From Burkholderia sp. HI2500 (GTDB lineage: Bacteria > Pseudomonadota > Gammaproteobacteria > Burkholderiales > Burkholderiaceae), in the NCBI RefSeq assembly GCF_002223055.1, contig NZ_NKFL01000004.1:1860001-1924000 (forward strand): DNA of 64,000 nt. Reading direction: 5' to 3'. The number at the start of each line of letters is the position of its first letter. Positions within the stretch are counted from its first letter, which is position 1. Below the pieces are notes generated by a model. That model searched no databases. It saw nothing but the letters and a program-made list of their open reading frames with translations, and had not been told where the DNA came from. A program made the position numbers and the translations under genes. Below are positions 1-10,521 of this stretch, in pieces.

Positions 1-60
1 GCATGCGCGCCGATCGGTCTCATTTGCCGCTCTGCTGCGCTGCAGCGGGCTGCGGACCAT

Positions 61-107
61 CTGGACACCGGCAAATGCGACCGGTGCCAGGCCCTGTTTT
101 TATTTGC
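61..107 (+). terminator. terminator-like hairpin at window edge
   Basis: Arms at 61-71 and 81-90 pair as a 10-bp stem with one bulged A (65) and a 9-nt loop. A T-rich run (96-101, then 103-105) follows five bases after the stem on the plus strand. It could end a plus-strand gene lying left of the window, converging on the MFS gene. The rest of 1-173 holds no convincing gene. Confidence 0.4.
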
Positions 108-173
108 GACGATGCGAACCGAACCGCGCCGCCCCAGAAAAACGGACACGGCCCTGCTTCCAATTTTCCTGGT

Positions 174-1394
174 TCAGGCAGCCGCCGCTTCCGGCCGCGC
201 ATTCGCGAAGGGGCGGAACATCATCGCGATCAGGAATGCGCCGAGACCGATCGCAAACGAGCCGAGATACAGCCAGCCGTAGCTGCCGAGCGTATCGACG
301 ATCAAGCCGCCGGCGACGGGCCCCGCTGCCATCCCCAGACTGCCGGCCATCGCGCAGCCGCCGATCACGGTGCCCATCATCCGCAGCGGGAAGTTCTCGC
401 GCGCCAGCACCGAATACAGCGGCATCACGCCCGCGTAGATGAAGCCGAACACGACCGCGACCGCGTAGAACCCGTCGAGCGTGCGCACGAAGTAGTACCC
501 GAGCGCACCCAGCGCCTGCGCAAGCAGCCCGGCTACCAGCATGCGCTTCGCGCCGATACGGTCGCCCAGGATCCCGAACGCGATCCGGCCGCCCATGCCG
601 GCGAGCCCTTCGACGCTGTAGATCGACACCGCGACGATCAGCGGGATCCCGCACGTCACCGCGTAGCTGACCGTATGGAAGATCGGGCCCGAATGTGTCG
701 CGCAGCAGAAGAAGTTGGTCAGCAGCAGCACGATGAACTGCGGCGAACGCAGCGCGTCCGCGACCGACATCGCCGCAGGCCCGCCGGCGGGCGCCGGCAC
801 CGCTGGAGCCGCCTGCGCGCCGTCGAGCGCGGGCGCCCGGCGCACCAGCAGCGACACCGGAATCATCACGACGGCCGCCAGCGTCGCCATCAGCAGCATC
901 GACGTGCGCCAGTCGCGCACCGACACGAGCCACGCGGCCAGCGGGGCCATCGTCATCGGCGCCATCCCCATGCCGGCCGACACGAGCGACACCGCGAGGC
1001 TGCGGTGCGTGTCGAACCAGCCGGTTACGCACGCCATCATCGGCGCGAATATCGCAGCCGTCGCGCCGCCGACGGCGAGGCCGAACGTGAGCTGGAACGC
1101 GAGCAGCGACGGCGCGCGGCTCGCCAGCGCCAGGCTTGCCGACAACAGGACGGCGCCCGTGATGACGACCGGGCGCGTGCCGATGCGGTCCGACAGGCTG
1201 CCCCATGCCATGCTCGCGAAGGCCATCGCGATGAAGCCGAGCGTCATCGCGCCGGAAATGCCGGTCATCGACCAGCCCGTGTCGCGCGCGATCGCGCGCA
1301 GGAACACCGGCAGCGAAAACATCGCGCCGATCGCGATGCAGCCCATCAGGCCGCCCGCGGCGACGATGACCCAGCGGTATCGGGAATCCGGCAT
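174..1394 (-). CDS. MFS transporter, monocarboxylate/oxalate-formate type
   Basis: This is a 406-aa inner-membrane carrier with about 12 hydrophobic segments split by a central Ala/Pro-rich loop (about residues 193-213). The loop between TM2 and TM3 carries the MFS motif A form GSLSDRIGTRP, and a weaker GILGDRIGAKR repeat follows in the second half. The start was placed at 1394 because GGAGG lies just upstream; a longer frame to 1511 has no such signal and adds a basic, non-membrane extension. It is divergent from the gntR operon at 1719, so it may move that pathway's substrate. The overall look is of the oxalate/formate or monocarboxylate families, but the substrate cannot be read from the sequence. 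Confidence 0.88.
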   Translation of the reverse strand: MPDSRYRWVIVAAGGLMGCIAIGAMFSLPVFLRAIARDTGWSMTGISGAMTLGFIAMAFASMAWGSLSDRIGTRPVVITGAVLLSASLALASRAPSLLAFQLTFGLAVGGATAAIFAPMMACVTGWFDTHRSLAVSLVSAGMGMAPMTMAPLAAWLVSVRDWRTSMLLMATLAAVVMIPVSLLVRRAPALDGAQAAPAVPAPAGGPAAMSVADALRSPQFIVLLLTNFFCCATHSGPIFHTVSYAVTCGIPLIVAVSIYSVEGLAGMGGRIAFGILGDRIGAKRMLVAGLLAQALGALGYYFVRTLDGFYAVAVVFGFIYAGVMPLYSVLARENFPLRMMGTVIGGCAMAGSLGMAAGPVAGGLIVDTLGSYGWLYLGSFAIGLGAFLIAMMFRPFANARPEAAAA

Positions 1395-1660
1395 GGGGTG
1401 CCTCCTTGTCGTGATGGCGATCCTCGGGAACCGGGTGCCACCTGCTTCGCGCAATGCCCGGTCGACATGGATACGACGGGCGACGCATCGGGAAATCGAC
1501 ATGTGCGGCACACACGCCGACGAATTTTTTCATTGTCGGCCGATCCGCTCGGCCCGCAACGGGCGGAGCGAGCCGACGCTACATGCCGAATGGTCCGTTC
1601 GGCCTGCCCCTTGCCGCCGCGCTTTTCCAGAATCGGAAAGTCGAAATCAGAAATAGTTGG

Positions 1661-1689
1661 TTGGGCCGCGCGACCCGGCTGACTACACT
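1661..1689 (+). promoter_or_regulatory. candidate sigma-70 promoter of gntR operon
   Basis: A -35-like TTGGGC (1661-1666) and a -10-like TACACT (1684-1689) are separated by exactly 17 bp. Transcription would begin near 1696, giving a short leader before the ATG at 1719. Both hexamers are imperfect, so this is a prediction from spacing and position. Confidence 0.45.
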
Positions 1690-1697
1690 CGAGCAAT

Positions 1698-1711
1698 CTT
1701 GTCATAACAAG
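1698..1711. promoter_or_regulatory. inverted repeat, likely GntR operator
   Basis: The sequence CTTGT-CATA-ACAAG is a perfect 5-bp inverted repeat with a 4-bp centre. It sits over the predicted transcription start and 7 bp upstream of the gntR ATG. HutC-type GntR proteins bind short palindromes with GT and AC separated by four bases, as here; the centre is AT instead of the usual TA. Binding would block the operon's own promoter, so autorepression is inferred. Confidence 0.55.
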
Positions 1712-1718
1712 TTGACCG

Positions 1719-2489
1719 ATGACCTCCCCCAACGTCGTGCCGCTGTCGGCGGCCCCGCTCTACGTGCAGATCAAGGACACGCTGCGCGCACGCATTCTCG
1801 ACGGCACCTATGCGCCGCACAGCCGGATGCCTTCCGAGCACGAACTCTGCGCGATGTTCGACGTCAGCCGCATCACGGTGCGCCAGGCGCTCGGCGATCT
1901 GCAAAAGGAAGGACTGCTGTTCAAGCTGCACGGCAAGGGCACCTTCGTGTCGAAGCCGAAGGCATTCCAGAACGTGACGTCGCTGCAGGGCTTCGCCGAG
2001 GCGATGTCGTCGATGGGCTACGAGATCGTCAACCAGGTGCGCAGCTTCCGCACCATCAAGGCCGACCGCCATCTCGCGACGAAGCTGAACGTGCCCGAGG
2101 GCGCGCCGCTCGTCGAGATCCATCGCGTGCGGCTGCTCAATCGCGAGCCCGTGTCGCTCGAACAGACCTGGGTGCCCGAAGCACTCGGCAAGCGCCTCGC
2201 GGGCGCCGATCTCGCGACCCGCGACATTTTCCTGGTCCTGGAAAACGACTGCGGCATCCCGCTCGGCCATGCCGACGTATCGATCGACGCGATCCTCGCC
2301 GACGACGAGATCGTCGATGCGCTGCACGTCGAGGAAAGCAGCCCCGTGCTGCGCATCGAGCGCCTCACGCATGACGCGTCGGGCGCACCGATCGACTTCG
2401 AATACCTCTACTTCCGCGGCGACGCCTTCCAGTACCGGCTGCGCATCGACCGGCAGAAACCGCGCCAACCTGCAAGGAAACAGCGATGA
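1719..2489 (+). CDS. GntR/HutC family transcriptional regulator with UTRA domain
   Basis: The 256-aa product has an N-terminal winged helix (about residues 10-78; PSEHELCAMFDVSRITVRQAL is the helix-turn-helix region, followed by the typical KGTFV wing). A UTRA ligand-binding domain follows (about 98-240). HutC-subfamily members sense a small metabolite of the pathway they control. It is the first gene of a series; its stop overlaps the next start (ATGA at 2486-2489), so it is co-transcribed with the flavoprotein and is the likely regulator of the operon. An inverted repeat just before its start suggests autoregulation. The effector is unknown. Confidence 0.93.
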   Translation: MTSPNVVPLSAAPLYVQIKDTLRARILDGTYAPHSRMPSEHELCAMFDVSRITVRQALGDLQKEGLLFKLHGKGTFVSKPKAFQNVTSLQGFAEAMSSMGYEIVNQVRSFRTIKADRHLATKLNVPEGAPLVEIHRVRLLNREPVSLEQTWVPEALGKRLAGADLATRDIFLVLENDCGIPLGHADVSIDAILADDEIVDALHVEESSPVLRIERLTHDASGAPIDFEYLYFRGDAFQYRLRIDRQKPRQPARKQR

Positions 2490-4225
2490 CTACCCATGTG
2501 CTCGAATACGACATCGTCGTGGTCGGCGGCGGCACGGCCGGCCCGATGGCGGCGATCAAGGCGAAGGAGCGCGACCCGTCCCTGCGCGTGCTGTTGCTCG
2601 AAAAGGCCAACGTGAAGCGCAGCGGCGCGATCTCGATGGGAATGGACGGCCTGAACAACGCGGTGATCCCCGGGCATGCGACGCCCGAGCAGTACACGCG
2701 CGAGATCACGATCGCCAACGACGGCATCGTCGACCAGGAAGCCGTGTATGCGTATGCGACGCACAGCTTCGAAACGATCGAGCAGCTCGACCGCTGGGGC
2801 GTGAAGTTCGAGAAGGACGGCACCGGCGACTACGCGGTGAAGAAGGTCCATCACATGGGCTCGTACGTGCTGCCGATGCCGGAAGGACATGACATCAAGA
2901 AGGTGCTGTACCGGCAACTGAAGCGCGCGCGCATTGCGATCACGAACCGGATCGTCGCAACGCGCGTGCTGACCGACGCGCAGGGCCGCGCGAGCGGCGT
3001 ACTCGGCTTCGACTGCCGCACCGCCGAGTTCCACGTGATCCGCGCGAAGGCCGTGATTCTCTGCTGCGGCGCGGCCGGTCGCCTCGGCCTGCCGGCCTCG
3101 GGCTACCTGATGGGCACCTACGAGAATCCGACCAACGCGGGCGACGGCTACGCGATGGCGTATCACGCCGGTGCCGCGCTCGCGAATCTCGAATGCTTCC
3201 AGATCAATCCGCTGATCAAGGACTACAACGGCCCCGCGTGCGCGTACGTCACCGGCCCGCTCGGCGGCTTCACCGCGAACGGCAAGGGCGAACGCTTCAT
3301 CGAATGCGATTACTGGAGCGGCCAGATGATGTGGGAGTTCTACCAGGAACTGCAAAGCGGCAACGGCCCCGTGTTCCTGAAGCTCGACCATCTCGCGGAA
3401 GAAACGATCCAGACCATCGAGCAGATCCTGCACACGAACGAGCGGCCGAGCCGCGGCCGCTTTCATGCCGGGCGCGGCACCGATTACCGCAGCCAGATGG
3501 TCGAGATGCACATCTCCGAGATCGGTTTCTGCAGCGGGCACAGCGCATCCGGCGTGTACGTGAACGCCCGCGCGGAGACGACCGTGCCCGGGCTCTACAC
3601 GGCCGGCGACATGGCGGCCGTCCCGCACAACTACATGCTCGGCGCATTCACGTACGGCTGGTTTGCCGGGCAGAACGCAGCCGACTACGTGGCCGGCCGC
3701 GAGCATGCGCCGGTGGACGACGAACAGGTCGCCGCCGAACGCACCCGTGTGCTTGCGCCGCTGCTGCGCGAGCGCGGCCTGGCGCCGGCGCAGGTCGAAT
3801 ACAAGCTGCGCCGCATGGTGAACGACTATCTGCAACCGCCGAAGGTGACACGCAAGATGGAAATCGGGCTGCAACGCTTTGATGAAATTGCTGAGGATAT
3901 CGAAGAGATAAAAGCGAACCATCCGCACGAACTGATGCGCGCCGCCGAGGTGCGCGCGATCCGCGACTGCGCGGAAATGGCCGCGCGCGCGTCGCTGTTC
4001 CGCACCGAGAGCCGCTGGGGGTTGTACCACCACCGCGTCGACTATCCGCATCGCAACGACGCCGAATGGTTCTGCCACACCTGGCTGCGCAAGGACGCCG
4101 CGGGCGCGATGCACAGCGAGAAGCGTCCGGTCGAACCATACGTCGTGCCGCTTGCCGACGACGAGCGCGGCGCCTACACGAATCTGCGCATCCGCGAGCC
4201 GGCCGCGCTCGCGGCCGCTCTTTGA
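2486..4225 (+). CDS. AprA/fumarate-reductase-like FAD flavoprotein subunit
   Basis: This 579-aa protein belongs to the fumarate reductase/succinate dehydrogenase/APS reductase flavoprotein superfamily. An N-terminal Rossmann motif (GGGTAG, residues 14-19) binds FAD, a second FAD-contact motif (GLYTAGDMA) lies near residue 370, and the C-terminal helical domain has the ESRWGLYHHRVDYPHR signature (about 508-523) seen in AprA and FrdA. There is no signal peptide or Tat motif, so it is cytoplasmic. It overlaps gntR by 4 nt and is followed 10 nt later by a two-cluster ferredoxin resembling AprB, an alpha/beta pairing like dissimilatory APS reductase. The substrate is not known; genuine APS reductase activity is doubtful in an aerobe with no sat or qmo genes in view. 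Confidence 0.88.
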   Translation: MTTHVLEYDIVVVGGGTAGPMAAIKAKERDPSLRVLLLEKANVKRSGAISMGMDGLNNAVIPGHATPEQYTREITIANDGIVDQEAVYAYATHSFETIEQLDRWGVKFEKDGTGDYAVKKVHHMGSYVLPMPEGHDIKKVLYRQLKRARIAITNRIVATRVLTDAQGRASGVLGFDCRTAEFHVIRAKAVILCCGAAGRLGLPASGYLMGTYENPTNAGDGYAMAYHAGAALANLECFQINPLIKDYNGPACAYVTGPLGGFTANGKGERFIECDYWSGQMMWEFYQELQSGNGPVFLKLDHLAEETIQTIEQILHTNERPSRGRFHAGRGTDYRSQMVEMHISEIGFCSGHSASGVYVNARAETTVPGLYTAGDMAAVPHNYMLGAFTYGWFAGQNAADYVAGREHAPVDDEQVAAERTRVLAPLLRERGLAPAQVEYKLRRMVNDYLQPPKVTRKMEIGLQRFDEIAEDIEEIKANHPHELMRAAEVRAIRDCAEMAARASLFRTESRWGLYHHRVDYPHRNDAEWFCHTWLRKDAAGAMHSEKRPVEPYVVPLADDERGAYTNLRIREPAALAAAL

Positions 4226-4235
4226 GGAACCTGCC

Positions 4236-4481
4236 ATGCCCCATACCCCGCACGACATCTTCCAGCGCAGCAGCGCACCCGTGACGATCGACGAGAACCT
4301 CTGCATCGCCGACAAGGGCTGCACCGTCTGCGTCGACGTATGCCCGCTCGACCTGCTCGCGATCGACGTGACCAAGGGCAAGGCCTATATGCAGTTCGAC
4401 GAATGCTGGTACTGCATGCCGTGCGAACGCGACTGCCCGACCGGCGCGGTCAAGGTCGACATCCCTTACCTGCTGCGCTGA
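4236..4481 (+). CDS. 2x[4Fe-4S] ferredoxin, AprB-like partner subunit
   Basis: The 81-aa protein carries two cluster motifs: Cys23, Cys29, Cys32, Cys36-Pro and Cys57, Cys60, Cys63, Cys67-Pro. The wider spacing in the first motif resembles the beta subunit of APS reductase more than a plain bacterial ferredoxin. It most likely passes electrons to or from the FAD of the preceding flavoprotein. The ATG at 4236 is preferred, with GAGGA about 8 bases upstream; a longer frame from 4152 would run back through the flavoprotein gene. The end has a PYLLR tail rather than the long AprB C-terminal extension that wraps AprA. Confidence 0.9.
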   Translation: MPHTPHDIFQRSSAPVTIDENLCIADKGCTVCVDVCPLDLLAIDVTKGKAYMQFDECWYCMPCERDCPTGAVKVDIPYLLR

Positions 4482-4512
4482 CCGTGTCCCTCAACGCTCA
4501 TTTGAGTCGCCG

Positions 4513-5508
4513 ATGACCACCCCCTCCTTCGCTCCCGTATTGCCGCGCGCAGACGCCCCCGACGAAGCCGCACTCGTCGCCCGCCTCGCCGCGCCCGATG
4601 CCGCCGTGCGTCGCGTCGCACTGTTCGAACTCGCCGACCTCGAGGACCCCGGGTTCGTGCCCGTGTTCATCGCCGCGCTGAGCGACGATCCGTCGGCCGA
4701 CGTGCGCGGCGAAGCCGCCCGCGTGCTCGGCGCGTGGGAGCAGCCCGACGTCGTCGACGCGCTGTGCGGCGCATTGCTCGATCCGGACGCCGACGTGCGC
4801 GACGCCGCCGCGCAGAGCCTGTCCGAACTGAAGGACGCTACATCCGGCGCCGTACTGTGCCGATGGGCCGACCGGCCCGAGCCGTTCGTGCGCCGTGCCG
4901 TGCTGCGCGGATTGCGCGAGTTGCGTGACCCCGGCGCGTTCGCGCCCGCGCTGCACGCGCTCGATGCCGAACACACCGAGGTGCGCGCCGAAGCCGTGGC
5001 GGTGCTCGGCTGGCTCAAGGATCCGCGTGCGCTGCCGCCGCTCGCGCGCACCGCGACAACCGATGCCGCAGCGGACGTGCGACGTATTGCCGTTGGCGCG
5101 CTCGGGTTCGCGACGCCCGACGATGCGACGGTCATCCACGCCCTGTTTGCCGCGTTGCGCGACCGCGAATGGCAGGTGCGCGAGGAAGCGGCCACGACGC
5201 TCGGCAAGCTGCGCATTGCGACCGCGCGCGAACCGCTCGTCGCCGCGCTCGACGACGACTACTGGCAGGTGCGCCTGCGTGCCGCGCGTGCGCTCGGGCA
5301 ACTGCGCGATGCGGCCGCGGCACCGGCCGTCGTCGCCCTGCTCTCGCACGCGATCAGCAACCTGCGCAAGGAAGCCGCGCTTGCGCTCGGTGAATTGCGG
5401 GACCGCGCGACGTTGCCCGCACTGACCCACGCACTGGAGGATCACGATCCGGAAGTCCGCAAGGCCGTGCGGATCGCGATCCGGCAGATCGACGAGGCGT
5501 CGCGATGA
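4513..5508 (+). CDS. HEAT-repeat protein (PBS-lyase type)
   Basis: The 331-aa protein is built almost entirely of about nine HEAT/PBS-lyase-like helical repeats of about 31 residues, each with a core like D-x-VR-x-EAA-x-x-LG-x-L. It lacks a signal peptide and membrane segments. It begins 31 nt after the ferredoxin and overlaps the next gene by 4 nt, so it belongs to the same operon. Related repeat proteins act as cofactor-attachment lyases or scaffolds. Here a role in assembling or holding the flavoprotein-ferredoxin complex is an inference from position. No catalytic residue is visible. Confidence 0.85.
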   Translation: MTTPSFAPVLPRADAPDEAALVARLAAPDAAVRRVALFELADLEDPGFVPVFIAALSDDPSADVRGEAARVLGAWEQPDVVDALCGALLDPDADVRDAAAQSLSELKDATSGAVLCRWADRPEPFVRRAVLRGLRELRDPGAFAPALHALDAEHTEVRAEAVAVLGWLKDPRALPPLARTATTDAAADVRRIAVGALGFATPDDATVIHALFAALRDREWQVREEAATTLGKLRIATAREPLVAALDDDYWQVRLRAARALGQLRDAAAAPAVVALLSHAISNLRKEAALALGELRDRATLPALTHALEDHDPEVRKAVRIAIRQIDEASR

Positions 5509-5792
5509 TCTCCCCAACCGAAATCGTGCTCGATCATCCGGCGCGCACGTTGACACTCCGCTGGCCGGACGGTCACACGCAACGCGTCAGCTACGCACGG
5601 TTGCGCGGCGATTGCCCGTGTGCGGAATGCCGAAGGATCCGGATCGACGGCGGTCGTGTCGATGCGCGGCCCGACCTGACGCTGGACAGCCTGGAAACGG
5701 CCGGCTACGGCATCCGCGTGGTGTTCGGCGACGGTCATGCGCGCGGCATCTATCCGTGGCCGTATCTGGCGGGCATGACCGCGCGGCCGTGA
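5505..5792 (+). CDS. DUF971 family small protein
   Basis: The 95-aa protein matches DUF971, the fold also found at the N terminus of gamma-butyrobetaine hydroxylase. The typical features are visible: RVSYARLRG, a CPCAECR metal-binding cluster (Cys37, Cys39, Cys42), a YGIRVVFGDGHARGIYPW stretch and a short tail. It overlaps the HEAT gene by 4 nt and closes the gntR operon. Stand-alone DUF971 proteins are often near iron-sulfur or quinone genes; a zinc- or iron-binding accessory role for the flavoprotein system is inferred. Confidence 0.85.
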   Translation: MISPTEIVLDHPARTLTLRWPDGHTQRVSYARLRGDCPCAECRRIRIDGGRVDARPDLTLDSLETAGYGIRVVFGDGHARGIYPWPYLAGMTARP

Positions 5793-5889
5793 CGTAGCGC
5801 CCGCGGCTGCGCGGACGAAATAGCAGGCGTGCGGAAACGCTGCGATACTGACGCCCACGATCGTCTCCACCCACCGTGGGAGCCAGAAC

Positions 5890-6774
5890 ATGCAAACCGC
5901 AGTCGGATTCATCGGCCTCGGCGTGATGGGCACGCCGATGGCGCTCAATCTTGCGCGGGCCGGCACGCCGCTCGTCGTATGGAGCCGGTCGCACGGCAGC
6001 GACGATGCGCTGCGCGACGCCGGAGCGCGCGTGGCCGAGCATGTAGACGACGTGTTCGCGACCTGCCGCACCGTGATCCTGATGCTCGCGAACGACGCGG
6101 CGATCGACGGTGTCCTCGCGCGCGGCACGCCCGGTTTCGGCGCCCGTGTCGGCGGCCACACCATCGTGAACATGGGCACGAACGCACCCGAATATTCGCG
6201 CGCACTGGCCGACGACATCGCCGCCGCGTCGGGCCGTTATGTCGAAGCGCCCGTGTCGGGGTCACGCAAGCCGGCCGAAGCCGGTCAACTCGTCGTGATG
6301 CTCGCCGGCGCACCGGACGACGTCGACGCCGTCCGTGCGCTCGTGAAGCCGCTGTGCCGCGACAGCTTCGTGTGCGGCGACGTGCCGTCGGCGCTGACGA
6401 TGAAGCTCGCCGTGAACCTGTTCCTGATCACGATGGTCACCGGCCTGACCGAAGCCACGCATTTCGCGCAACGCCACGGCATCGATCTCGCCCGCTTCGC
6501 CGACGTGCTGAACGCCGGCCCGATGGCGAGCGACGTGTCGCGCGTGAAGCTCGGCAAACTCGTCGCGGCCGATTTCTCGGTGCAGGCCGCGATCACCGAC
6601 GTGCTGAAGAATGCGCGCCTCGTCGCCGAATCCGCGCGCGGCATCGGCATCGCGTCGCCGCTGCTCGACATCTGCCATGCGCTCTACGGCGAGACCGAGC
6701 GAGCGGGACATGGTACGGACGACATGGTCGCCGTGATCCGCGCGATCGAGCAGCGCACCGACCACGCGCAATGA
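5890..6774 (+). CDS. NAD(P)-dependent oxidoreductase, 3-hydroxyisobutyrate dehydrogenase family
   Basis: The 294-aa enzyme has the N-terminal dinucleotide-binding motif GFIGLGVMG (residues 6-14), the substrate-loop motif VEAPVSGS (about 118-125) and the catalytic lysine at 172 in the MKLAVNLF helix. Members oxidise beta-hydroxy acids (3-hydroxyisobutyrate, tartronate semialdehyde, glyoxylate-type substrates) in the cytoplasm. The family G-SG-K pattern is intact. It starts about 100 bp after the DUF971 gene, with no overlap, so it may be a separate unit. The substrate is not determinable here. Confidence 0.88.
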   Translation: MQTAVGFIGLGVMGTPMALNLARAGTPLVVWSRSHGSDDALRDAGARVAEHVDDVFATCRTVILMLANDAAIDGVLARGTPGFGARVGGHTIVNMGTNAPEYSRALADDIAAASGRYVEAPVSGSRKPAEAGQLVVMLAGAPDDVDAVRALVKPLCRDSFVCGDVPSALTMKLAVNLFLITMVTGLTEATHFAQRHGIDLARFADVLNAGPMASDVSRVKLGKLVAADFSVQAAITDVLKNARLVAESARGIGIASPLLDICHALYGETERAGHGTDDMVAVIRAIEQRTDHAQ

Positions 6775-6824
6775 ATCTTCACCGGCCGCCCCATACACTC
6801 GAACGCACCTGCGCGTAGCACCCC

Positions 6825-7316
6825 ATGTCCGACTCACCCCGCTCCCCGACCAGCGTCCCCGCTTCCGTCCGCCCGGTTCCCGCCGTGATCGGCATCGTCC
6901 TGCGGGAGCGCGACGTGCTGCTGGTGCGTCGCGCCAATCCGCCCGATGCGGGCTGTTGGGGCTTTCCCGGCGGCAAGATCGAAGCGGGGGAATCGATAGC
7001 GAACGCGGTCGTGCGCGAGATCGCGGAAGAAACCACCGTCGACGTCGAAGCACTCGACGCCTTTACCGCGCTGGATGCGTTCGATTACGATGCCGGCGGC
7101 GACGTGCGTCAGCATTTCGTGATGGTCGCGGTGCTGTGCCGATGGTTGCGCGGCACGCCTGCCGCCGGCGACGACGCGCTCGACGCGCGCTGGTTCGATC
7201 TCGCCGAACTCGACCGCGATGACTTGCCGATGAGCGCGGGTGTTCGTGATGTCGCGCGACGCGCGATCGAGCGTGCGGCGGCACTTGGTCACGTGCAGCG
7301 TCCTGCCAATACTTGA
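6825..7316 (+). CDS. NUDIX hydrolase
   Basis: The 163-aa protein contains a NUDIX box at residues 50-72 (G-x5-E-x7-REIAEE), with threonine where the box normally has glycine near its end. The preceding WGFPGGKIE and the beta strand VIGIVLRERDVLLVRR fit the ADP-ribose/mutator-like families, which hydrolyse nucleoside diphosphates linked to another group, using Mg2+. It follows the dehydrogenase by about 50 bp on the same strand. The substrate cannot be assigned. Confidence 0.9.
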   Translation: MSDSPRSPTSVPASVRPVPAVIGIVLRERDVLLVRRANPPDAGCWGFPGGKIEAGESIANAVVREIAEETTVDVEALDAFTALDAFDYDAGGDVRQHFVMVAVLCRWLRGTPAAGDDALDARWFDLAELDRDDLPMSAGVRDVARRAIERAAALGHVQRPANT

Positions 7317-7432
7317 ATGCGTGAAGCACCGCTGTCTTTCTCGCAGCGCTTGCGAGCGACCCTAGCGGGACCATGACAGTGCCGGCTACGCGCCGACGAA
7401 CCTCCAATTACAAATCAAAGATGGGCCAAACC

Positions 7433-7897
7433 ATGCTCAGAATTCGCAAGTCCACCCCGGCCGACGGCACACGCGTGCTGGATATCTGGCGCAACGCGGT
7501 CGACGCCACGCACCATTTCCTCAGCAACGACGACCGACGCGCGATCGAATCCGAAGTCGTCGCGTTCCTGCCCGGTGCACCGCTCGATCTCGCCGTCGAC
7601 GATACCGACCGGGCGATCGGCTTCATGTTGCTCGACGGTAGTCACATGGAAGCACTGTTCGTCGATCCCGCTCACCACGGCGCGGGTGTCGGGCGCCTGC
7701 TGGTGGAAGACGCGCTCAAGCGTCACCCCGACCTGTCGACCGACGTCAACGAACAGAACGAAGCGGCGGCAGGCTTCTATGAACGGCTCGGCTTCGAGCG
7801 CACCGGGCGATCGGCGCTCGATGGGCAGGGGCGCGCCTATCCGCTGATTCACCTGCGCTATCGCGCGAAACCGTCGTCGTCGCCGCAGCCCGCATAA
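7433..7897 (+). CDS. GNAT N-acetyltransferase, YjaB-like
   Basis: The 154-aa product closely resembles E. coli YjaB: an N-terminal RIRKSTPAD strand, VDATHHFL, the GFMLLDGSHMEALFVDP core, the acetyl-CoA loop HGAGVGRLL, then NEQNEAAAGFYERLGF. It transfers an acetyl group from acetyl-CoA to an unknown amine. The ATG at 7433 matches the YjaB start; an in-frame ATG at 7421 is possible. It stands alone between short gaps. Confidence 0.9.
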   Translation: MLRIRKSTPADGTRVLDIWRNAVDATHHFLSNDDRRAIESEVVAFLPGAPLDLAVDDTDRAIGFMLLDGSHMEALFVDPAHHGAGVGRLLVEDALKRHPDLSTDVNEQNEAAAGFYERLGFERTGRSALDGQGRAYPLIHLRYRAKPSSSPQPA

Positions 7898-8152
7898 CCG
7901 TGACCGGCGCGGGATAGCGCGCCGCCCTCCGCGTCATGCGCTCCGAGCACGCGAACGCGGCGACCTGATACCAGGTCCGCTCCACGCATGCCGCATGCGG
8001 CCACGTGACGCGTCATGCACGACGCACCGGTACCACGCGCTCGACCCTTGCACGGATGATCGTTTCCCGGACTGAACGAGCCTGTCACGGGCCGGGAGAT
8101 GCTAACCTCTCGGCCACTCTAACGACACCGCGTGAAGCCACAGGATTCGACC

Positions 8153-8770
8153 ATGCAAACCGTTGCGGTACTGGACTTCGAAACAACCGGACTTTCGCCG
8201 AATATGGGCGATCGAGCGACCGAAATCGCCGTCATCCTGCTCCGGGACGGGGAAGTCGTCGACCGTTTCCAGAGCCTGATGAATGCAGGCAGACGCATAC
8301 CGTCCGATGTCGTCGCGCTGACCGGCATCACGAACGAGATGATCGCAGCGGCGCCGCCGGCGTCGACCGTCATGAAGGAAGCCGCGGCGTTCGTCGGCAA
8401 GCATGCTGTCGTCGCTCACAACGCCGGTTTCGACAAACGGTTCTGGCAGTCGGAACTCGGGCTGCTTGGCGTGTCGGCCGAGCATGCGTTTGCGTGCACG
8501 ATGCTCGTGGCGCGACGTATCTACCCGGATGCCCAGAGTCACCGCCTGTCGAGCCTGGTGGATATGCTGCGGTTGCCGAAATCGGGCCGTGCGCACCGGG
8601 CGATGGTCGATGCCGAGATGGCCGGGCACCTGTGGTGCCGGCTGCAACACGACATTGCGCGGACGTACGGACTGAATCGTATCGATCACGCGCTCATGAC
8701 ACGTGTGCAGGCCACGGCCAAGGCGAAAGTGCCGACGTACCTGCGTTCGCTCGTGGGCGCACACGTGTGA
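8153..8770 (+). CDS. 3'-5' exonuclease, DnaQ/DEDDh family
   Basis: The 205-aa protein shows the complete DEDDh active site: Asp8 and Glu10 in LDFETTG, Asp94 in HNAGFDKRFW, and His148 with Asp153 in AHRAMVDAEM. It resembles the epsilon proofreading subunit and RNase T-type exonucleases but lacks the clamp-binding tail typical of DnaQ. It probably trims DNA or RNA 3' ends in the cytoplasm. ATG 8153 was preferred over an in-frame GTG at 8132. It is followed by a strong hairpin shared with guaA. Confidence 0.9.
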   Translation: MQTVAVLDFETTGLSPNMGDRATEIAVILLRDGEVVDRFQSLMNAGRRIPSDVVALTGITNEMIAAAPPASTVMKEAAAFVGKHAVVAHNAGFDKRFWQSELGLLGVSAEHAFACTMLVARRIYPDAQSHRLSSLVDMLRLPKSGRAHRAMVDAEMAGHLWCRLQHDIARTYGLNRIDHALMTRVQATAKAKVPTYLRSLVGAHV

Positions 8771-8795
8771 TGCAGGCACGCAGCGCGTCAACGTA

Positions 8796-8823
8796 AAACG
8801 GCTTGGCAATCGCCAAGCCGTTT
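8796..8823. terminator. bidirectional intrinsic terminator, exonuclease/guaA
   Basis: A perfect 12-bp stem (8796-8807 with 8812-8823) closes a 4-nt AATC loop. An A-run on the left and a T-run on the right give a uridine tail in both directions. It lies between the convergent exonuclease gene and guaA. Confidence 0.8.
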
Positions 8824-8901
8824 CTAGTCCGGGCCTGAGCCCGGGCAGCATGCAAACCGAATCGGCCGTCCGCTTCCGAACGCCGATTCAGCAACCAGTA
8901 C

Positions 8902-10521
<1,620 letters not shown>

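Follow-up and report, generated by a model that had tools for sequence, protein, structure and literature searches.

The window, the 64,000-nucleotide stretch of Burkholderia sp. HI2500 DNA analysed here, contains five co-directional genes encoding a GntR-type regulator, a flavoprotein (FP), a small ferredoxin, a HEAT-repeat protein and a DUF971 protein (Table 1). GntR and FP overlap by 4 nt, FP and the ferredoxin are separated by 10 nt and the ferredoxin and HEAT by 31 nt, and HEAT and DUF971 again overlap by 4 nt. Each of the five genes was found in its place, and the coordinates, overlaps and family matches agree with the tightly packed operon described in the earlier note. The operon genes and the operator in front of them are all intact in this strain.

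Table 1 Features of the FP locus, in window coordinates.
Feature	Positions	Strand	Evidence
MFS transporter, divergent neighbour	174-1394	-	PF07690
GntR operator CTTGTCATAACAAG, palindromic	1698-1711	.	7 bases before GntR start codon
GntR/UTRA (HutC-type) regulator	1719-2489	+	PF00392 76 bits, PF07702 (UTRA) 132 bits
FP (FAD subunit, AprA/FrdA superfamily)	2486-4225	+	NF006131/PRK08275; FAD_binding_2 112 bits, Succ_DH_flav_C 59 bits
Small AprB-like ferredoxin with two predicted [4Fe-4S] sites	4236-4481	+	Fer4_7 35 bits, 8 Cys
Ferredoxin/HEAT junction, site of the ABC importer cassette in relatives, empty here	4482-4512	+	
HEAT-repeat subunit	4513-5508	+	PF13646 (HEAT_2) 215 bits
DUF971 (GBBH-like_N) protein with CxCxxC (CPCAEC)	5505-5792	+	PF06155 73 bits

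The gene set is widely shared. Among the loci of the 80 closest relatives retrieved, we counted the 74 with at least 7 kb of downstream sequence and excluded the 6 shorter ones. FP, ferredoxin and HEAT genes occur together in 74/74 of these loci, so their order is not due to chance; GntR is present in 71/74 and DUF971 in 64/74 (and thus missing in 10/74). The set is found on contigs and plasmids of Burkholderia, Pseudomonas, Ralstonia, Acinetobacter, rhizobia, methylotrophs, cyanobacteria and actinobacteria, with plasmid-borne copies extending to rhizobia, Cyanobacteria and Actinobacteria. The order is therefore not peculiar to this strain, a possibility that the earlier note had raised. A larger set comprises 109 loci including the window's own, which the corresponding 110-row alignment holds twice; homologue scoring covered 7998 candidates, among them relatives with another function. 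A 3-hydroxyisobutyrate-dehydrogenase-like gene at 5890-6774 was considered as a pathway member and rejected, as it is labelled in 4/80 loci, all from Burkholderia. An Rfam search for riboswitches in positions 1-9000 of the window returned mir-455 as the sole match at E ≤ 1, with a chance-like 22.8 of 70 bits. Searches of the titles and the beginnings of abstracts of open-access journal papers returned no paper on the gene set, including on the A. caldus plasmid, and the part of PMC8557817 available mentions neither fumarate reductase nor HEAT repeat.

With ≤1 mismatch allowed, the operator sequence CTTGTCATAACAAG occurs nowhere else in the genome (8.26 Mb). Sites with ≤2 mismatches lie upstream of GntR or FP in 85 of the 90 GntR-bearing loci, the window's own included, and in 0/19 loci without this GntR. 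As a control, random segments of 480 nt were drawn from these loci; a site was present in 51 of the 2180. The GntR/UTRA regulator is probably autoregulatory and dedicated to the FP operon.

FP is a full member of the NCBIfam family NF006131 (PRK08275; 1153.1 bits, cut-off 587), which carries the name “fumarate reductase/succinate dehydrogenase flavoprotein subunit”. It is highly conserved, with 188 residues invariant across the 110 rows. The dicarboxylate ligands of E. coli SdhA, His242, Thr254, Glu255 and Arg286, find no equivalent in FP: the first three correspond to Asn241, Ala253 and Tyr254, invariant in the 110 rows, and Arg286 aligns to a gap ahead of Asp275. AprA Arg265, an active-site residue, is replaced by Leu243, and AprA Gln145 by Val128, both in 110/110 rows. 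Gln145 of AprA is named in the part of PMC10322725 available. In the comparison with AprA residues that the earlier note had proposed, Asn74 is kept, while Arg265, Gln145 and Trp234 are not. As judged from the alignment, FP carries neither the AprA nor the SdhA active site, and its residues do not support the fumarate/succinate name of NF006131. FP therefore does lie within a named family, but one whose name finds no support in the active-site residues, and the earlier note's concern that a family with a defined substrate might claim it is not borne out.

Among solved structures, FP is nearest to sulfonucleotide reductases. Its best PDB match is the α subunit of a PAPS reductase (8a8o; 209 bits, or 278 with a profile), followed by AprA, in keeping with the AprA/AprB likeness that the earlier note had pointed out. 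Like the Methanothermococcus PAPS reductase (8a8o, PMC10322725), which pairs an FAD-containing α subunit of 571 aa with a small 2x[4Fe-4S] β subunit, and like dissimilatory AprAB, the system described here has an α/β pairing; it further shares the eight-Cys ferredoxin and Asn74 with AprAB. However, the PAPS reductase keeps the Arg at the AprA-265 position that is Leu in FP, and the HEAT, DUF971, GntR and importer genes of the present set go unmentioned for it in the part of PMC10322725 available. Neither the AprA model TIGR02061 (179.3 bits for FP, cut-off 641.75) nor the AprB model TIGR02060 (38.1 bits for the ferredoxin, cut-off 135.65) is matched above cut-off, and the genome returned no AprA or DsrA above curated cut-off. 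FP also scores below cut-off against the SdhA/FrdA models (TIGR01812, 167/567; TIGR01816, 134/727; TIGR01176, 124/933 bits) and the NadB model TIGR00551 (115 bits, cut-off 452.75). The tree suggested in the earlier note separates FP from the SdhA, FrdA and NadB rows with 100/100 support, with long-branch warnings, and leaves the point at which AprA joins relative to FP unresolved. A structure model of FP was too poor to be used (mean pLDDT 54.8).

The 8-Cys two-cluster pattern of the ferredoxin is present in 109/109 loci. Against NF010374 (PRK13800), which models an FP-HEAT fusion, the HEAT protein scores 83 bits, matching the HEAT half, and in two Actinobacteria, Tsukamurella and Nonomuraea, FP and HEAT form one fused protein. 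These fusions make HEAT more likely a subunit of the enzyme than the assembly factor assumed in the earlier note. The names of NF006131 and NF010374 point to a fumarate/succinate enzyme, for which the residues offer no support. DUF971 retains CxCxxC in 80 of the 87 loci which have the gene and has lost it in 7/87, and three cyanobacterial plasmids carry Mrp/NBP35 after HEAT in its place; the DUF971 protein is a candidate Fe-S maturation factor.

The usual transporter of the relatives is an ABC cassette of an SsuA-like binding protein, a permease and an ATPase, located between ferredoxin and HEAT in 49/74 loci, including those of B. ambifaria and B. cenocepacia; in 25/74 loci, from several genera, the cassette is absent at this junction. 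Among Pseudomonadota, the importer occurs in 14/15 genomes with FP, as opposed to 0/284 without FP. The one exception is the window strain, so the importer was invisible to the earlier note. A search for an orthologous binding protein in this genome returned none (no match at 1e-60; the best has 29% identity over residues 67-291 of 476), and B. territorii retains remains of both ends of a deleted cassette. HI2500 thus harbours an importer-less form of the system. The MFS gene facing the operon, to which the earlier note had drawn attention, is indeed present, but the usual transporter is the ABC importer: the MFS gene is labelled in 6/80 loci, all from Burkholderia sensu stricto, so it is probably a local neighbour outside the conserved unit. 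B. ambifaria and B. cenocepacia each have the MFS gene as well as the ABC cassette, so MFS does not generally stand in for the importer.

The cassette shares its ABC layout, and perhaps its binding-protein fold, with the sulfonate importers SsuABC and TauABC, but its binding protein is longer (447-517 aa versus about 320; rows covering <70% of the query were dropped from this set). Four binding proteins score 112, 121, 115 and 150 bits against the SsuA model TIGR01728, below its cut-off of 163.5, and in a fold comparison of residues 19-346 SsuA (24.1, 23.2) scores only marginally higher than bicarbonate/nitrate regulatory domains (23.1, 23.0). The imported ligand therefore need not be a sulfonate. 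The binding protein also weakly resembles SaoX of the selenocysteine-assisted organometallic (SAO) system, at 40.4 bits at best for a cut-off of 300. Its extra C-terminal part matches NosL above Pfam's cut-off in 3/9 proteins tested; a link to organometals (SAO/MerB) through this domain was dropped, as the domain is borderline and its sequence degenerate in 18 rows. In the plasmid neighbourhoods inspected, the annotations include neither a MerB-like lyase nor a selenoprotein.

Sulfur-related genes accompany a minority of the loci. YeiH, TauE, TauD, a sulfate-binding protein and a DmoA-type monooxygenase, five types chosen after inspection of many neighbours, are all absent nearby in 81/109 loci. 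YeiH is not near FP in 11/15 genomes (in the window genome it is 268 kb away), and three of the four genomes with YeiH near FP belong to one genus; YeiH, TauE and sulfate-binding neighbours nonetheless recur in separate lineages. FNR is near FP in 7/109 loci and FdxA in 6/109.

Gene content and order, the fusion, the importer co-occurrence, the operator and the missing known active sites are what the computation shows directly. We infer, as the earlier note did from the window, a cytosolic redox enzyme. FP, the 2x[4Fe-4S] ferredoxin and HEAT would form a ferredoxin-linked flavoenzyme, with DUF971 (or Mrp) aiding cluster loading and the dedicated GntR/UTRA regulator probably acting as a repressor of the operon. 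The enzyme most likely acts as a reductase. Because an SsuA-like importer, ferredoxin reductases and sulfite-resistance or exporter genes lie beside some copies, we favour, at a probability of about 45%, the reductive cleavage of an imported small organosulfur anion with release of sulfite. The substrate would enter through the importer in most relatives, and electrons would pass from NADPH via ferredoxin-NADP reductase/ferredoxin and the two [4Fe-4S] clusters to FAD. Reduced FAD could then attack a sulfonate, S-sulfonate or similar anion, as APS/PAPS reductases do their sulfonucleotide, and the sulfite would be assimilated or exported (YeiH, TauE). All 110 FP rows have Leu in place of AprA Arg265, which the methanogen PAPS reductase retains, so sulfonucleotide chemistry is not simply transferable. 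A more specific version, in which flavin N5 of an oxygen-tolerant, ferredoxin-driven FP-ferredoxin-HEAT reductase would attack an imported organosulfonate or S-sulfonate and cleave it directly to sulfite, we regard as unlikely.

Other substrates and directions can be envisaged. It is somewhat unlikely that the three-subunit enzyme and its importer serve a non-sulfur compound (a carboxylate, N-oxyanion, pyrimidine or aromatic) and that the sulfur neighbours are incidental: judging by the titles of fold matches, nitrate, bicarbonate, pyrimidines and PQQ are among the ligands of the NMT1/SsuA-type fold, and both the loss of AprA Arg265 and the 81 loci devoid of the five sulfur-gene types are in line with this, but the recurrence of sulfur neighbours in separate lineages and the S(VI) substrates of the nearest solved enzymes argue against it. 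A catabolic dehydrogenase passing electrons from the imported substrate to ferredoxin is improbable. GntR/UTRA repressors are frequent on catabolic operons and the superfamily includes dehydrogenases such as SdhA, whose substrate ligands are nevertheless absent from FP; FNR and FdxA, where they adjoin FP, better fit electron supply.

The database names would make FP a fumarate reductase/succinate dehydrogenase or APS reductase, an identity suggested by the NF006131 label and the superfamily matches and rendered extremely improbable by the substituted SdhA and AprA residues, by scores below cut-off for all AprA, SdhA, FrdA and NadB models and, for the fumarate/succinate enzymes, by the tree. 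As for the window strain, its operon might be on its way out, the enzyme perhaps having no substrate once the importer and its binding protein are gone; the intact genes and operator and the 25 relatives without a cassette at the junction make such decay rather unlikely.

A compact, highly conserved enzyme system thus passes under a name unsupported by its residues, and the importer, operator and residue results provide direct handles for finding its substrate. Aerobic bacteria usually obtain sulfur from sulfonates by oxygenase and lyase routes. If the sulfur reading holds, the system would represent a new way of sulfur acquisition for these organisms, and the label of a whole family could be corrected; direct cleavage to sulfite, if true, would constitute a reductive route to sulfonate sulfur in aerobic bacteria and add a branch to APS-reductase-type flavin chemistry.

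Tight packing of the operon, as described in the earlier note, is borne out in the window: two gene pairs overlap by 4 bases, and the other neighbours are separated by 10 and 31 bases. One side is flanked by an MFS gene on the opposite strand, in agreement with the carrier said to face the operon, and a 3-hydroxyisobutyrate-dehydrogenase-like gene lies downstream. The latter carries this label in 4 of the 6 loci from Burkholderia sensu stricto and is unlikely to be a pathway member. The host genome is 8.26 Mb, with the window on contig C4, and the nearest named protein (98% identity) comes from Burkholderia lata.

Features of the flavoprotein operon and its surroundings in the window
Feature	Position	Strand	Description
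Putative operator	1698-1711		CTTGTCATAACAAG, before GntR
Five-gene operon	1719-5792	+	GntR/UTRA, FP, ferredoxin, HEAT, DUF971
GntR/UTRA regulator	within 1719-5792	+	first gene
FP (flavoprotein)	within 1719-5792	+	FAD protein, 579 aa
Ferredoxin	within 1719-5792	+	81 aa, eight Cys
HEAT (HEAT-repeat protein)	within 1719-5792	+	331 aa
DUF971 protein	within 1719-5792	+	95 aa
3-hydroxyisobutyrate-dehydrogenase-like gene	5890-6774		97 bases past the operon

A nine-row FP alignment was scanned against genome_contigs, and the best 80 of at least 587 confirmed matches were used; these are the closest ones, hence skewed to Burkholderiales and Pseudomonas. Among the 74 of these 80 loci whose sequence continues for 7 kb or more past FP (the six shorter ones were left out), ferredoxin and HEAT are present in 74/74, GntR in 71 and DUF971 in 64, while an ABC binding-protein gene occupies the ferredoxin-HEAT place in 49; the gene order is thus not peculiar to this strain. 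FP exceeds the family cut-off in 15 of 299 Pseudomonadota genomes drawn. Plasmid copies occur in Acinetobacter, Cupriavidus, Aquabacterium, Acidithiobacillus, Mesorhizobium, Rhizobium, Sinorhizobium, Bradyrhizobium, Methylobacterium, Methylocystis, Leptolyngbya, Pseudanabaena, Nostoc, Tsukamurella and Nonomuraea. On Nostoc pNe_5 (L113:10707-13888), FP and ferredoxin are separated by a group of genes of the HAD, methyltransferase, GNAT and VOC (FosA-like) types.

HEAT would be a functional component of the enzyme; the best evidence is that FP and HEAT form one protein in Tsukamurella and Nonomuraea, as in family model NF010374. The earlier suggestion that the operon brings its own assembly factors would suit DUF971 better than HEAT. 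DUF971 likely acts in Fe-S maturation, with CxCxxC in 80 of the 87 loci having the gene; the other seven are five rhizobial plasmids and two genomes. Three cyanobacterial plasmids have Mrp after HEAT in its place. In HCF101, a passage of PMC7980591 describes a DUF971 domain fused to an Fe-S carrier, mostly with CxCxxC, and terms the domain's function elusive.

The FP alignment holds 188 invariant positions across 110 rows (109 loci plus the window, whose own locus is repeated as L001, and many rows closely related). Profile alignment to solved structures places FP Leu243, Val128 and Tyr212 at AprA Arg265, Gln145 and Trp234, with AprA Asn74 retained as Asn57; SdhA His242, Thr254 and Glu255 correspond to Asn241, Ala253 and Tyr254, and SdhA Arg286 lies opposite a gap. 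These AprA and SdhA residues belong to the active sites of their enzymes. Gln145 is named as an active-site residue in PMC10322725. Methanogen PAPS reductase, in contrast to FP with its Leu243, retains Arg at the AprA-265 position. The window proteins also fall under the cut-off of the curated models for AprA, AprB, SdhA/FrdA and NadB. In the tree proposed earlier, of 48 rows (32 FP and 16 others, with the family verified for 10 of the 16), a 100/100 branch parts FP and AprA from SdhA, FrdA and NadB, with the AprA joining point unresolved and a long-branch warning from the program. Membership among APS reductases or fumarate reductases was rejected on residues and curated models, and the name "fumarate reductase/succinate dehydrogenase flavoprotein subunit", carried by NF010374 and by NF006131, the model that FP matches, has no support from active-site residues. 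FP may still work in the manner of APS reductase.

The enzyme likely runs in the reductive direction. Genes for ferredoxin-NADP reductase and FdxA lie near FP in 7/109 and 6/109 loci, in Methylobacterium, A. caldus and Pseudomonadota genomes outside the window's class. On A. caldus pTcM1 (L008:10574-14035), a 1153-aa GltD-like flavoprotein, possibly a dedicated NAD(P)H electron source, adjoins FdxA behind the operon.

As to the substrate, we favour a sulfur compound, tentatively and with a probability of about 0.45. YeiH, which drives resistance to sulfite in Salmonella according to PMC12880088, is encoded near FP in 6/109 loci: two cyanobacterial plasmids, where FP-ferredoxin-HEAT-Mrp is followed on the same strand by YeiH and TauE/SafE, and L106-L109, from Pseudomonadota outside the window's class (three of one genus). 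In 4/15 FP genomes its distance from FP is no more than 10 kb, versus 0.07 expected from copies per genome, in a comparison chosen after the neighbour was seen, with rounded genome sizes and related genomes counted singly; in the other 11 it is absent or distant (268 kb away in the window's own). Other neighbours among the 109 loci are sulfate-binding protein (8), TauD-like (9), DmoA-type monooxygenase (6) and TauE (4), with references drawn from the same loci and each TauE match its own reference. At least one of these five types occurs in 28/109 loci and none in 81/109. Seven Caballeronia and Sinorhizobium loci (L049, L054, L055, L057, L058, L119, L121) have the operon near both sulfate-binding-protein and alpha/beta-hydrolase genes.

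A site within two mismatches of CTTGTYATRACAAG precedes GntR or FP in 85 of the 90 loci having this GntR type (47 exact, 33 with one mismatch, 5 with two; absent from L008, L011, L028, L109 and L114), in 0/19 loci without it, and in 51/2180 random 480-nt segments from the same loci. The window genome has no second site at up to one mismatch. Sixteen further genomes, picked for an exact (15) or near-exact (that of L040) site at the operon, hold one exact site in 14 cases, two in one and none in L040's genome; a backward-read control pattern occurs once in 3/16. From this near-uniqueness, the regulator looks dedicated to the operon, and its family suggests that it would act by repression. In G310, a Paucimonas MAG also holding L086, a second site precedes another GntR gene of the same type (L151), possibly a second operon copy, FP downstream being hinted at solely by an antisense frame. 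Cyanobacterial LysR regulators beside the operon (L010:6403-8439, L112:6676-8676) carry a C-terminal NMT1-type ligand-binding domain, an unusual fusion.

In most relatives, genes for the binding protein, permease and ATPase of an ABC importer sit at the ferredoxin-HEAT junction or nearby. A 37-row binding-protein alignment (E <= 1e-60), with rows supplied in part by seven of the matching genomes, found 14 of the same 299 genomes, all within the 15 bearing FP (Fisher 3.9e-23, related genomes counted singly, 9 FP genera); the match in G012 is interrupted by one stop codon, and in G028, where both are on one contig of 4.8 Mb, the importer is 2.9 Mb from FP, or 1.9 Mb should the contig be circular. 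The window's own is the only FP-bearing genome of the 15 without a match, and it has just ordinary SsuA-like proteins, reaching at best 29% over residues 67-291 of 476. The window thus holds an importer-less copy of the operon. B. ambifaria (L016) and B. cenocepacia (L018), with FP 97% identical to the window's, have the cassette. In B. territorii (L017), both cassette ends adjoin between ferredoxin and HEAT (L017:12001-12280): the start of the binding-protein gene with its leader and opening codons (74% versus L018 over 99 bases) and the ATPase-gene end running into HEAT (76% over 194 bases versus L016). The cassette was thus lost there by deletion. The short ferredoxin-HEAT junction of the window shows no remnants in comparison with relatives; here too we infer loss and not later gain by the relatives. 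At its core the operon is a conserved ferredoxin-flavin enzyme set of three genes, which in most cases comes with a dedicated importer and regulator.
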